From assembly GCA_913063435.1 (NCBI GenBank), contig CAJXYI010000010.1, positions 1 through 59,381 on the forward strand: a stretch of 59,381 nt of DNA, given 5' to 3'. A model generated the notes under the pieces. It did no database searches. It saw nothing but the letters and a program-made list of their open reading frames with translations, and was not told the DNA's origin. The position numbers and the translations under genes are program-made. Source of the DNA: an uncultured Actinomycetales bacterium. GTDB taxonomy: Bacteria > Actinomycetota > Actinomycetes > S36-B12. Below are positions 36,574 through 57,378 of this stretch, piece after piece (position 1 is the stretch's first letter; the number at the start of each line of letters is the position of its first letter).

Positions 36574-36777
36574 ATGCCCACGATGAGACTCACGGATTTC
36601 TGGGAACGCATGACCGCGGTCTTCGGGCCTGACTACGCCGCCTCGTGGGCGAATGACTACGTGCTGGGCCCCCTGGGATCACGGACGGTGATGCAGGCGA
36701 TCGAAGCCGGGATCGATACCAGCGTGATCTGGCGTGCGGTGTGCGAGGTGGCCGATGTCCCCGGGTGGCTGCGATAA
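36574..36777 (+). CDS. DUF3046 family protein
   Basis: 67 residues starting MPTMRLTDFWERM; the conserved pattern MRLTxFWERM..FG..YA.SWA.D.VL..LG.RTV.QA...G.....VWRAVCE...VP of DUF3046 is complete. This small actinobacterial protein is nearly always encoded just before recA, and its function is unknown. ATG 36583 (MRLTDF) is an alternative start. Its stop TAA (36775-36777) is also the first half of the -10 hexamer of the next gene. Confidence 0.9.
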   Translation: MPTMRLTDFWERMTAVFGPDYAASWANDYVLGPLGSRTVMQAIEAGIDTSVIWRAVCEVADVPGWLR

Positions 36778-36787: not shown

Positions 36788-38065
36788 GTGACCGCCTCAC
36801 TGGAGTTCACCACCGCGAGCCTCGAGCGCTATCAGCGCCGCTCGGTGTCGGTGCTGTCGGCCGGGCAGGTTCTGGGCAGCCTGGCCGTCGCAGGTGCGGT
36901 GGCGGCAGGCGCGCTGATCGCCGAGGGGGTGTCCGGGAGCGAGGGGGCGGCAGGACTGGCCCAGACATTCGGTGTTCTCGGTGCGGCGATCATGGCTCTG
37001 CCGCTCGCCCGACTCGCCCTCAGCAAGGGGCGGCGGGTGTCCCTGGCTTTCGGCTACGGCATTGGGGCGATCGGCTCGCTCATCGTGATCTCCGGTGCCG
37101 TGTGGCGCCTGCTGCCCGTGGTGTTCGCCGGCACGCTGCTCGTCGGAGTTGCGACCGCATCGGGGTTGCAGGCCCGTTATGCGGCAACCGACCTGGCGAC
37201 CGAGGAGACACGCGGGCGTTCGCTGTCGATCGTCGTCTGGGCCGGCACGATCGGTGCGGTGGCCGGGCCGAATCTGCTCGAGGTCTCCGGCCACCTCGGT
37301 GTCGCCCTCGGCCTGCCGCAACTGGCCGGACCGTATGTCGTCGGGTTCCTGGCGCTGGCGGCTGCAGCACTCGTGATCGGGATTTTCATGCGCCCGGACC
37401 CGTATCTGCTCGCGCGATCGGCTCGGGCCTCGAAGGACCCGGTGGCAGCGGCGGAGATCGCTCATCCTCGCCTGCGCGACGGGATCGCACACATCCGCCA
37501 CAACCCCACGGCGATCCTGGGTATCACCACCATCGCGATCGGACACGTCGTGATGGTGGCCGTGATGGTGATGACGCCGATCCACATGGCGCACGTCGAT
37601 GTGACCCTGCAGTTGATCGGACTCGTGATCAGCGTCCATGTCGCCGGGATGTACGCGCTCTCGCCGCTCGTCGGCTGGGCGGTCGACCGGATCGGTCGTA
37701 TCCCGGTGATCTGGGCGGGGATCGCGATCCTGGTGGTCTCCTGCGTCCTGGCCGCGATATCGGCAGGGGATGACATCCTCAGCCTCGGTATCGGTCTGTT
37801 CCTTCTCGGCCTCGGTTGGTCGTGCACCCTGATCGCCGGTTCGACGCTGCTCGTCGATGGCATCGCCGCACAGGAGCGACCGAGCGTGCAGGGGCTGTCG
37901 GATCTGGTGATGAACGCAGCGGGTGCGCTCGGAGGAGCGCTCGCAGGGCTCATCGTGTGGCTGAGTTCGTATGCGGTCCTCAGCCTGGTGTCGATCGTGC
38001 CGGTCGTCGCCTTGGCGTTGCTGATCCCGGCGTGTCGCCGCGGATCGAACACGCGTTCGCTCTAG
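36788..38065 (+). CDS. Major facilitator superfamily transporter
   Basis: 425 residues with about 12 membrane helices and a central charged loop (ASKDPVAAAEIAHPRLRDGIAHIRHNP). MFS-type sequence includes LARLALSKGRRVSLAFGYGIGAIG between helices 2 and 3 and LVGWAVDRIGRIPVIWAGI in the second half. GTG 36788 is set by the leaderless -10; longer upstream frames are DUF3046 read in another frame. The substrate is unknown. The last codons and stop contain the LexA box and -10 of the recA promoter, so this gene's 3' end is under double selection. Confidence 0.88.
   Translation: MTASLEFTTASLERYQRRSVSVLSAGQVLGSLAVAGAVAAGALIAEGVSGSEGAAGLAQTFGVLGAAIMALPLARLALSKGRRVSLAFGYGIGAIGSLIVISGAVWRLLPVVFAGTLLVGVATASGLQARYAATDLATEETRGRSLSIVVWAGTIGAVAGPNLLEVSGHLGVALGLPQLAGPYVVGFLALAAAALVIGIFMRPDPYLLARSARASKDPVAAAEIAHPRLRDGIAHIRHNPTAILGITTIAIGHVVMVAVMVMTPIHMAHVDVTLQLIGLVISVHVAGMYALSPLVGWAVDRIGRIPVIWAGIAILVVSCVLAAISAGDDILSLGIGLFLLGLGWSCTLIAGSTLLVDGIAAQERPSVQGLSDLVMNAAGALGGALAGLIVWLSSYAVLSLVSIVPVVALALLIPACRRGSNTRSL
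38045..38060 (+). promoter_or_regulatory. LexA (SOS) box of recA
   Basis: TCGAACACGCGTTCGC matches the actinobacterial SOS consensus TCGAAC-N4-GTTCGA at all but the last base. It lies inside the 3' end of the MFS coding region, two bp before the -10 hexamer, an ideal place for repression. Confidence 0.85.
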
Positions 38066-38068
38066 CCT
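38063..38068 (+). promoter_or_regulatory. recA-region -10 hexamer, overlapping the MFS stop codon
   Basis: TAGCCT; its TAG is the MFS stop. Seven nt later is GTG 38076, which opens a 35-codon frame upstream of recA. The LexA box ends two bp before it. Confidence 0.65.
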
Positions 38069-38075
38069 GGGGATC

Positions 38076-38183
38076 GTGAACGAGGAATTCCCCAGGGCAG
38101 TTCGTCGAGTCCAGGCGATGTCGGACCCTTCGCCTAACGTCGGCGCCCATCGAGCAAACCGCCTCGTCCGCCCCCGCACCTGA
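38076..38183 (+). CDS. Putative leaderless leader ORF upstream of recA (35 codons)
   Basis: GTG at the predicted +1 of the LexA-controlled promoter opens a 35-residue frame ending TGA at 38181-38183, 33 bp before the recA ATG. The peptide is basic (seven Arg) and ends LVRPRT. I know no family for it. It fits the leaderless rule (7-nt spacing) seen for real genes nearby, but it could be chance in high-GC sequence, and only ribosome profiling or conservation would show translation. Confidence 0.4.
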   Translation: MNEEFPRAVRRVQAMSDPSPNVGAHRANRLVRPRT

Positions 38184-38216
38184 CCGCATCAGGACCGCAC
38201 AGTGAAGGAGCCCACC

Positions 38217-39314
38217 ATGGCCTCGTCGAAGAACTCCACCCCGTCATCGAACGGCACCGACCGCGAGAAGGCCCTCGATGCCGCCCTCGCCCACATCGAG
38301 CGTCAGTTCGGCAAGGGCTCGGTCATGCGACTGGGCGAGGAAGGCCGACCTCCGGTCGACGTCATCCCCACCGGATCCATCGCCTTGGACGTCGCCCTGG
38401 GAATCGGGGGACTGCCCCGTGGTCGCATCGTGGAGGTCTACGGTCCCGAGAGCTCGGGCAAGACGACCGTCGCGCTGCATGCCATCGCGAATGTCCAGGC
38501 AGCCGGTGGCATCGCCGCGATGATCGACGCCGAGCATGCCCTCGATCCCACGTACGCCGCACGCCTCGGCGTCGATCTGGACAGCCTGTATGTGTCCCAG
38601 CCCGATACGGGGGAGCAGGCTCTGGAGATCGCCGACACCCTGGTGCGATCGGGTGCGATCGACCTGATCGTCATCGACTCCGTGGCGGCCCTGGTGCCGC
38701 GGGCGGAGATCGAGGGTGAGATGGGCGATAGCCACGTCGGCCTGCAGGCTCGGTTGATGAGCCAGGCGCTGCGCAAGATGGCCGGTGCATTGAGCCAGAC
38801 CGGCACGACGGCGATCTTCATCAACCAGCTGCGCGAGAAGATCGGTGTCATGTTCGGGTCACCGGAGACGACGACGGGTGGCAAGGCGTTGAAGTTCTAT
38901 GCCTCGGTGCGCCTGGACGTTCGCCGCATCGAGACTCTCAAAGGCGGCACCGAGGCGGTCGGTAACCGCACCCGGATCAAGGTCGTGAAGAACAAGATGG
39001 CACCGCCGTTCAAGCAGGCCGAGTTCGACATCCTCTACGGCGAGGGAATCTCGCGGGAAGGCAGCCTGATCGACCTGGGTGTCGATGCGGGGATCGTGAA
39101 GAAGTCCGGAGCCTGGTACACCTACGAGGGCGATCAGCTCGGTCAAGGCAAGGAGAACGCGCGAGCCTTCCTGCGCGACAATCCGGATCTGGCCGGTGAG
39201 ATCGAGAAGCGCATCCGCGAGCACATGGGTATCGATGCCAGCCTCGAGTCGGAGGCAGGCCGCGACGATGCCGTGGATCTCGATGCGCCGATCGACGTCG
39301 TCCCACTGGATTAG
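38217..39314 (+). CDS. recA: Recombinase RecA
   Basis: 365-residue ATP-dependent recombinase and LexA co-protease. Walker [11 protein letters not shown] near residue 80, Walker [11 protein letters not shown] near 150, the L2 region [28 protein letters not shown] near 200-230, an acidic C terminus. The ATG follows GAAGGAGCCCACC; GTG 38202 would put that ribosome binding site inside the gene, so it is rejected. Predicted LexA control through the box at 38045. recX follows after six bp. No intein is present. Confidence 0.98.
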
Positions 39315-39320
39315 CACCCG

Positions 39321-39914
39321 ATGGTCCGCCGCGATCAGCCGACGCCGGGATCCCTTGCGGATCTCGGTCCCGAAGCCGATCCTGAACAGGTGGCGCGCAC
39401 CATCGCCCTGCGACGATTGGAAGCCGCTCCTCGCACGCGTGCCGAACTCGCACGGACCCTCGCTGAGCGGGGCATAGCCGCAGACGTCAGTGACCGGGTT
39501 CTCGATCGGTTCACCGAGGTCGGGTTGATCGACGATGCGGCTTTCGCCCACCAGTGGGTGGAATCGCGCCATCGGGGTAGGGCCCTCGCGCGTTCGGTCC
39601 TGCGTCGAGAACTGCACCAGCGTGGAGTCGAGCCGGAGGTGATCGATGAGGCTGTCGAGTCCCTTGATGACGACGATGAGTGGGTCCGTGCTCGGGAGTT
39701 CGCCCGTCGCAAGATCCGCATCAAAGCAGGAGAGGACTCCCGCAAAGCCGTGCAGCGTCTCGCGGGGCAGTTGGCCCGCAAGGGGTATCCGGCAGGTGTG
39801 TCCTTCGCTGTGGCCCGTGAGGCGCTAGCCGATGCGTTGCAGGAGGGGCAGGATGATCCGATCGATGAGTTGGGCGCAGGTGTCGTCATCGGGGACGTCC
39901 CCGTAGATGAGTAG
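39321..39914 (+). CDS. recX: Regulatory protein RecX
   Basis: 197-residue helical repeat protein that limits RecA filament growth. Typical features: ALRRLEAAPRTRAELARTLAERGI near residues 30-53, VLDRFTEVGLIDDAAFAHQWVESR, and GRALARSVLRRELHQRGVEPEVIDEAV, the three-helix repeats of RecX. Cotranscribed with recA (6-bp gap). Its last 90 bp overlap the convergent TetR gene. The C terminus after residue 175 (acidic) may be an extension allowed by this overlap. Confidence 0.93.
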   Translation: MVRRDQPTPGSLADLGPEADPEQVARTIALRRLEAAPRTRAELARTLAERGIAADVSDRVLDRFTEVGLIDDAAFAHQWVESRHRGRALARSVLRRELHQRGVEPEVIDEAVESLDDDDEWVRAREFARRKIRIKAGEDSRKAVQRLAGQLARKGYPAGVSFAVAREALADALQEGQDDPIDELGAGVVIGDVPVDE

Positions 39915-56170: not shown

Positions 56171-57013
56171 CTACAGGCGTCGCAGCACGGTGACGACCCG
56201 TCCGAGGATGTGCGCCTCGTCGCCGTCGATCGGTGCGTAGGCCGGATTGCGTGGCAGCAACCACACATGCCCATCGCGTCGACTGAGCACCTTCACCGTG
56301 GCTTCCCCATCGATCATGGCGGCGACGATCTCACCATCGTCGGCTGTCGGCTGCTGCCGGACGACGACCCAGTCGCCATCGCAGATCGCAGCATCGACCA
56401 TCGAATCACCGACGACGCGGAGCAGGAACAGCTCGCCCTCGCCGACGATCTCGCGGGGTAGCGGGAACACCGATTCGATCGCTTCCTCGGCCAGCAGCGG
56501 CGCGCCGGCTGCGATAGCGCCCAGGACCGGCACGAACGTCGCGCTGGGGCGCAGATCGACCCCCGACTCGGTGGATGCGGGTGTGGGTGAACTCGACACG
56601 ACCAGCGCACGCGGACGATGCTCGTCGCGGCGCAGGAGGCCTTTGGATTCCAAGGCGCGCAGTTGGTGGGCGACGCTGGACGGCGAGGTCAGACCCACCT
56701 CTTCGCCGATCTCCCGAACGCTCGGCGGATAGCCACGCTCGGCGATGGAACGGCGAATCACCGCGAGAACCGCCTGCTGGCGTGTGGTGATGCCGGGCAC
56801 GGCCGTGTCGTCGAGGAGCTCGTCAGGGACCGGTGTCGCTGCGGCGCGTCCGGTGCCGCGCGAACCAGGTGCGGTCGCGGCCTTCGCGGTCGTCGACCGT
56901 TTCGCGGCCGGCTTCTTCGGCGCCGATTTCCTGGCGGTCGACTTCTTCGGGGTGGACGTGGCCGACCTCGAGGATGCCGTGGTCGGTTTCGTCGAGCGGG
57001 GGCGAGATGCCAT
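56171..57013 (-). CDS. lexA: SOS repressor LexA
   Basis: 280 residues, longer than usual. Residues 1-75 form a Lys/Ala/Ser/Thr-rich tail ([18 protein letters not shown]). The winged helix follows ([53 protein letters not shown]). The cleavage Ala-Gly is in [13 protein letters not shown] near residue 182, the catalytic Ser in [10 protein letters not shown] near 217 and the Lys in EATVKVLSR near 254, so self-cleavage should work. AGGAGGAACCC precedes the ATG at 57013, 10 codons inside the longest frame. Probably autoregulated by the LexA box at 57226. Confidence 0.97.
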
Positions 57014-57200: not shown

Positions 57201-57229
57201 ACGCTAGCGGGTTCACAGCCAATTCCCAA
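57201..57229 (-). promoter_or_regulatory. lexA promoter
   Basis: -35 TTGGGA (57229-57224) and -10 TAGCGT (57206-57201) on the minus strand with a 17-bp spacer. LexA box A overlaps the -35, the expected place for autorepression. Predicted lexA leader about 180 nt. Confidence 0.6.
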
Positions 57230-57241
57230 ACACCTGTTCGA
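57226..57241. promoter_or_regulatory. LexA box A (lexA/LysM intergenic)
   Basis: CCAAACACCTGTTCGA, 14 of 16 matches to TCGAAC-N4-GTTCGA, overlapping the lexA -35. Confidence 0.75.
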
Positions 57242-57277: not shown

Positions 57278-57293
57278 TAGGACAGATGTTCGA
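57278..57293. promoter_or_regulatory. LexA box B
   Basis: TAGGACAGATGTTCGA, two mismatches to the SOS consensus. It covers the predicted +1 of the LysM gene and directly abuts box C. Confidence 0.6.
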
Positions 57294-57378
57294 TCGAACA
57301 CCTATACGAGTGGCGCACCTTCGTGCTGCGACGGGAGTTCGAGCCGGATACGACGAGAGGTCGAGGAGGACCCGATGA
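57286..57378 (+). CDS. Putative leader ORF coupled to the LysM gene (30 codons)
   Basis: ATG 57286 is eight nt after TAGACA (57272-57277), which has TGGACG 17 bp upstream. The 30-residue frame ends in TGA that overlaps the LysM ATG as ATGA (57375-57378), and its codons 26-28 carry the AGGAGG used by the LysM gene. It is Arg-rich and ends RSRRTR. The exact coupling is suggestive; translation is unproven. Confidence 0.45.
   Translation: MFDRTPIRVAHLRAATGVRAGYDERSRRTR
57294..57309. promoter_or_regulatory. LexA box C
   Basis: TCGAACACCTATACGA, two mismatches to the SOS consensus. B and C join at a perfect 14-bp palindrome TGTTCGATCGAACA (57287-57300). Confidence 0.6.

Follow-up and report, generated by a model that had tools for sequence, protein, structure and literature searches.

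In compact bacterial genomes, promoters may overlap the 3′ end of the upstream gene; a search of the open-licence literature for regulatory sites in coding DNA retrieved nothing. The recA gene of Mycobacterium smegmatis has two promoters, of which P2 is LexA-dependent and P1 is PafBC-dependent (PMC5656591). In mycobacteria, P1 carries the LexA-independent motif tTGTCRgtg-8nt-TannnT, the activity of which requires PafBC (PMC5656591). LexA sites also occur within coding sequence: Streptomyces venezuelae has 176 intragenic LexA sites near start sites, and the genes containing them, dnaE2 excepted, are not differentially regulated after DNA damage (PMC9380542).

We analysed a stretch of 59,381 nucleotides (the window) from an uncultured actinobacterium whose nearest named relatives are metagenome-assembled genomes of Candidatus Nanopelagicales. 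In the other families of this order, the DUF3046 gene mostly adjoins recA on its upstream side; here an MFS transporter gene intervenes (Table 1). The original prediction placed an SOS promoter of recA inside the 3′ end and stop codon of that MFS gene. We gathered recA loci from the family, the order and the class, the close relatives in this comparison all being metagenome-assembled genomes. Our analysis indicates with high confidence that the site is a LexA-controlled recA promoter that is old and conserved in actinobacteria, and that the MFS gene came to end within it. In this family of aquatic actinobacteria, the predicted recA switch would also encode the final twelve residues of a transporter and supply its stop codon.

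Table 1. Genes and predicted regulatory features of the recA and lexA regions (window coordinates).
Feature	Position	Strand	Basis or remark
DUF3046 gene	36574-36777	+	
MFS transporter gene	36788-38065	+	Pfam MFS_1, 1e-25; start codon inferred
Terminal 12 MFS codons (PACRRGSNTRSL) and stop, spelled by promoter DNA	38027-38065	+	absent in MFS relatives away from recA
CGGCGTGTCG, class-wide conserved element	38028-38037	+	7 nt 5′ of box; genome scans
LexA box (SOS operator, predicted), TCGAACACGCGTTCGC	38045-38060	+	sequence, conservation, strict-site scan
-10 hexamer TAGCCT (TANNNT type) of LexA-controlled recA promoter	38063-38068	+	conservation in relatives
Second recA promoter (putative), PafBC / RecA-NDp type, TGTCGG-N10-TAACGT	38119-38140	+	leader comparison
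recA	38217-39314	+	TIGR02012, 1.9e-172
recX	39321-39914	+	follows recA
lexA	56171-57010	-	TIGR00498, 2.1e-70; within same window
Three LexA-box-like sites beside lexA	57226-57241, 57278-57293, 57294-57309		

The LexA box and the end of the MFS gene

Read in the MFS frame, positions 38045-38065 are TCG AAC ACG CGT TCG CTC TAG, or S-N-T-R-S-L-stop. The box encodes S-N-T-R-S, and its last base begins the final Leu codon; two bases after it, the stop codon TAG (38063-38065) forms the first three bases of the -10 hexamer. TCGAACACGCGTTCGC agrees with TCGAAC-N4-GTTCGA at 11 of its 12 specified letters, the last A being replaced by C (the 15/16 originally reported counts the four N), and it matches CGAACRNRYGTTYG perfectly (14/14). 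By sequence it is a LexA box of the actinobacterial or Gram-positive type, to which LexA is predicted to bind. We also tried the E. coli-type LexA box, which gave no relevant match.

In the 2.52 Mb genome, CGAACRNRYGTTYG is found at two places. One is the recA site, where the motif can be read on either strand; the other, at 57227, is in the stretch that separates lexA from a LysM-type gene at the window's end. Two of the box-like sites in that intergenic region, 57278-57293 and 57294-57309, abut. Allowing one mismatch, we found the composite GGCGTGTCG-N7-TCGNAC-N4-GTTCG-N3-TANNNT in 72 of 85 family genomes, in each of them a single time; the reversed pattern has zero matches in family genomes. 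The presence of the putative recA LexA promoter in the coding end of the MFS gene is confirmed and is far from chance. The in-frame reading bears out the predicted coding of the last MFS residues by the box, and the stop codon opens the -10 hexamer as had been described.

A strict sigma-70 scan found no promoter at this site because there is no recognisable sigma-A -35 (38040-38045 is GCGGAT). The -35 position is weak in most relatives and was hence not counted as a requirement for a P2-type promoter; the defining feature of that type, a LexA box adjoining a TANNNT -10 hexamer, 5′ of recA and kept in relatives, is present here. Support for TAGCCT as the -10 comes from conservation, not from a consensus score, and in relatives with a non-coding box TANNNT lies 1-3 nt past the box.

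Conservation and probable loss of the overlap

The same overlap is present at 41 distinct loci from 8 genera (g1-g7 and g11), all within one family of Ca. Nanopelagicales, and the register is identical in every one, with the box ending five bases ahead of the last base of the stop codon. We aligned the MFS C termini, a check proposed with the original prediction. The consensus tail is [P/S/T/A]-A-C-R-x-x-S-[N/Y]-[T/A/K/M]-R-S-x-stop. Codons are fixed at the promoter letters, where GCG, TGT, TCG (twice), CGT and TAG are each invariant (41/41) and the Asn position of the box is AAC in 39 loci and TAC in two. Elsewhere in the same genes, TCG makes up 31% of Ser codons, TGT 29% of Cys, CGT 14% of Arg and GCG 33% of Ala. 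Spacer codons are free to vary even in amino acid, those at the box centre including ACC, GCA, ACG, ATG, AAG and ACT. Given the amino acids and average usage, a single locus would carry these six codons with a probability of about 0.0008; since the loci are related by descent, their fixation does not amount to 41 independent trials. The LexA operator and -10 lie within MFS coding DNA and the overlap is conserved; this is therefore a real dual-use stretch.

Several loci add detail. Two beyond the 41 (L062 and L094) have the same MFS end on contigs without recA. In genus g7 (L058 and L097), the box is TCGTAC-N4-GTTCGG, with one change in a usually invariant half-site and Tyr replacing Asn in the tail. 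Long ORFs terminate at the same TAG in L040 and L207; that of L040, whose frame overlaps DUF3046, is probably spurious. The fourth position of the box centre is C in 41 of 41 overlapping loci versus 15 of 48 others on the tree. This is suggestive of a coding constraint on the box centre, which, with one independent pair on well-supported branches, we do not claim.

Among family rows on the recA tree, 26 of 67 are without the overlap. Parsimony on the best tree gives 7 state changes within the family and 8 overall, of which well-supported branches alone force only 2. Nearly all of the family lineages without the overlap keep the promoter with its spacing unchanged. In one locus (L064), genes have been inserted between the MFS stop and an intact box. 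The MFS protein there ends in PAWRRHSVNAD (codons CCG GCA TGG CGT CGT CAC TCC GTC...), apparently the old tail, still recognisable, with its promoter letters drifting (TCG to TCC, TGT to TGG). The MFS gene of genus g12 stops about 60 bases 5′ of the box, and its protein ends in a sequence like PSSRRTSART. Most likely, the overlap was gained once near the base of the family and then lost several times. Several independent gains are unlikely because the register is identical in 8 genera; the direction of change is read from this identity and from the relics, not from a rooted test.

An upstream element and a second promoter motif

CGGCGTGTCG codes most of P-A-C-R in the MFS tail, and its centre would be near -42, assuming a transcription start near 38075. 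We scanned order and class genomes for GGCGTGTC placed 5-14 bases before a TCGAAC-N4-GTTCG box. The combination is present in 115 of 166 order genomes and 137 of 297 class genomes, with 0 matches for reversed controls. Nearly all of 30 loci examined (28) are 5′ of recA, and TANNNT follows just past the box in nearly all. An element of the CGGCGTGTCG type is found in the class-wide loci L204-L233, and the genome of the window contains one copy of the element with TANNNT spaced as here. One class genome (G425) has two recA genes, with the composite LexA promoter before both (L243 and L244).

Across the class Actinomycetes, CGGCGTGTCG, the LexA box and TANNNT are found 5′ of recA, mostly outside any identified gene, and outside the family the MFS gene is missing from the recA promoter position. 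With the promoter class-wide and the MFS gene there in one family only, the promoter is old and the overlap a family feature. The promoter being usually outside identified genes, the end of the MFS gene would have fitted itself to a pre-existing promoter; the proposal that the promoter was built inside the MFS gene was not borne out. We found no description of a recA-linked CGGCGTGTCG element in the open-licence literature. It is a tentative idea, given somewhat less than an even chance, that an undescribed factor recognises CGGCGTGTCG (or that sigma-A contacts it in a way so far unrecognised), acting with LexA at recA across Actinomycetes, and that in this family the whole composite promoter has served as the 3′ end of the transporter gene, regulatory DNA fixing protein sequence over the history of the family.

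The recA leader contains a second candidate promoter. TGTCRG-N10-TANNNT is found in 90 of 109 recA leaders (shuffled mean 0.05 leaders) and in 0 leaders at any other spacing from 6 to 14. Relative to the mycobacterial P1 motif, the window has ATGTCGGAC-CCTTCGCC-TAACGT, matching in the TGTCR core, the spacing and TannnT, and partly in the lower-case letters. The genome also has a pair of WYL-domain ORFs that overlap, which is the pafB-pafC arrangement, and PafBC may act at this motif. Contrary to what had been proposed, the control of recA would accordingly not be tied to the LexA site at the MFS end alone. The motif falls within 38080-38210, the range in which a recA start from another promoter was to refute the original prediction; it would add a promoter without removing the first.

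Other sequences recur in the leaders. Many have a DnaA-box-like motif, TCCACAG / TTATCCACA, a short way past the -10: TCCACAG is present in 54 of 109 (shuffled mean 2.1) and TTATCCACA in 13 of 109 (shuffled mean 0). Examples of one or the other are L035, L049, L205 and L214, and the window has TTCCCCAGG near 38088-38096. A hairpin in the recA leader was rejected, the fold being no better than shuffles (z = 0.58).

Probable origin of the overlap and comparison with known systems

The reading of the site as an old LexA-controlled promoter draws on the box, its register, the codon fixation, the breadth of the arrangement and the second motif, all of them taken from sequence. Under this reading, LexA on its box would extend over the weak -35 position and almost to the -10, excluding RNA polymerase; DNA damage would lead to LexA cleavage and to transcription from about 38075. 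The PafBC-type promoter would provide a LexA-independent start near 38147 and a separate damage input to recA. Because the MFS frame always runs into the promoter in the same register, the promoter would dictate the last 12 MFS residues, with the -10 supplying the stop codon. Selection would act mainly on the DNA as a promoter, the MFS protein tail tolerating a sequence set by the promoter, and the overlap would be lost through gene insertion or movement of the MFS gene. Ribosomes and RNA polymerase completing the MFS gene would traverse the operator. A scan of 37900-38300 found no terminator-like site between MFS and recA, so some read-through is possible.

That traffic raises the alternative that the overlap is useful in itself: transporter and recA expression would be coupled, either because MFS transcription crosses the operator or because LexA obstructs the transcript's end, and the coupling would be kept. 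The identical register in 8 genera and the potential read-through into recA are what such coupling would leave, but simple descent also accounts for the register, the overlap has probably been lost repeatedly in the family with the promoter intact, and recA can do without it, to judge from the second promoter and from several decoupled relatives. We consider coupling unlikely.

The tail PACRxxSNTRSx could also be kept for protein function, the LexA-like sequence being incidental. Six of its positions are nearly invariant and it is basic, with a mean net charge of 2.6 versus 1.6 in other MFS relatives. Yet this DNA is also conserved at loci where it is no part of the MFS coding sequence, the fixed wobble bases coincide with the letters required by LexA or the promoter while the others are free, and MFS relatives not adjoining recA lack the tail, making a protein-level explanation extremely improbable. 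We likewise give almost no weight to the idea that a GC-rich gene end resembles a LexA box by chance and that recA is driven solely from 38119-38140: the leader does hold that second motif, but a 2.5 Mb genome with two strict sites, one of them beside lexA, and a composite motif found once per genome against an empty control argue otherwise.

The old promoter with a later-fitted gene end therefore remains our preferred reading. The original prediction is supported as to the dual-use overlap but not as to its direction or the sole control of recA. Its claim of no room to change one function without the other was too strong, given that spacer codons vary and that the overlap was probably lost several times with the promoter kept. 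The locus offers a clear example from nature of a protein sequence dictated by regulatory DNA, with wobble bases fixed where LexA or RNA polymerase would read and amino acids free in between. The cost of dual use is testable because relatives exist in which the two functions are separated. The comparison has also brought to light an element of the recA promoter that is conserved across Actinomycetes.

With a LexA promoter and a PafBC-type motif both ahead of recA, the locus looks like the two-promoter arrangement of mycobacteria (PMC5656591, PMC8151990), and we consider the site equivalent to mycobacterial recA P2. The P1-like motif is weaker here, with ATGTCGGAC for TTGTCRGTG, and, unlike in mycobacteria, the neighbouring MFS gene has the P2-like operator, the -10 and the upstream element within its coding sequence. 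As with the intragenic sites of S. venezuelae, LexA sites lie within coding sequence, but here the site is recA's own conserved operator and sits in the upstream gene in a register that is kept from genus to genus. As in the overlaps of compact genomes, the promoter of the downstream gene lies in upstream coding sequence; in contrast to them, the stop codon and the -10 share bases, and in most of a family part of the protein sequence is set by the operator.
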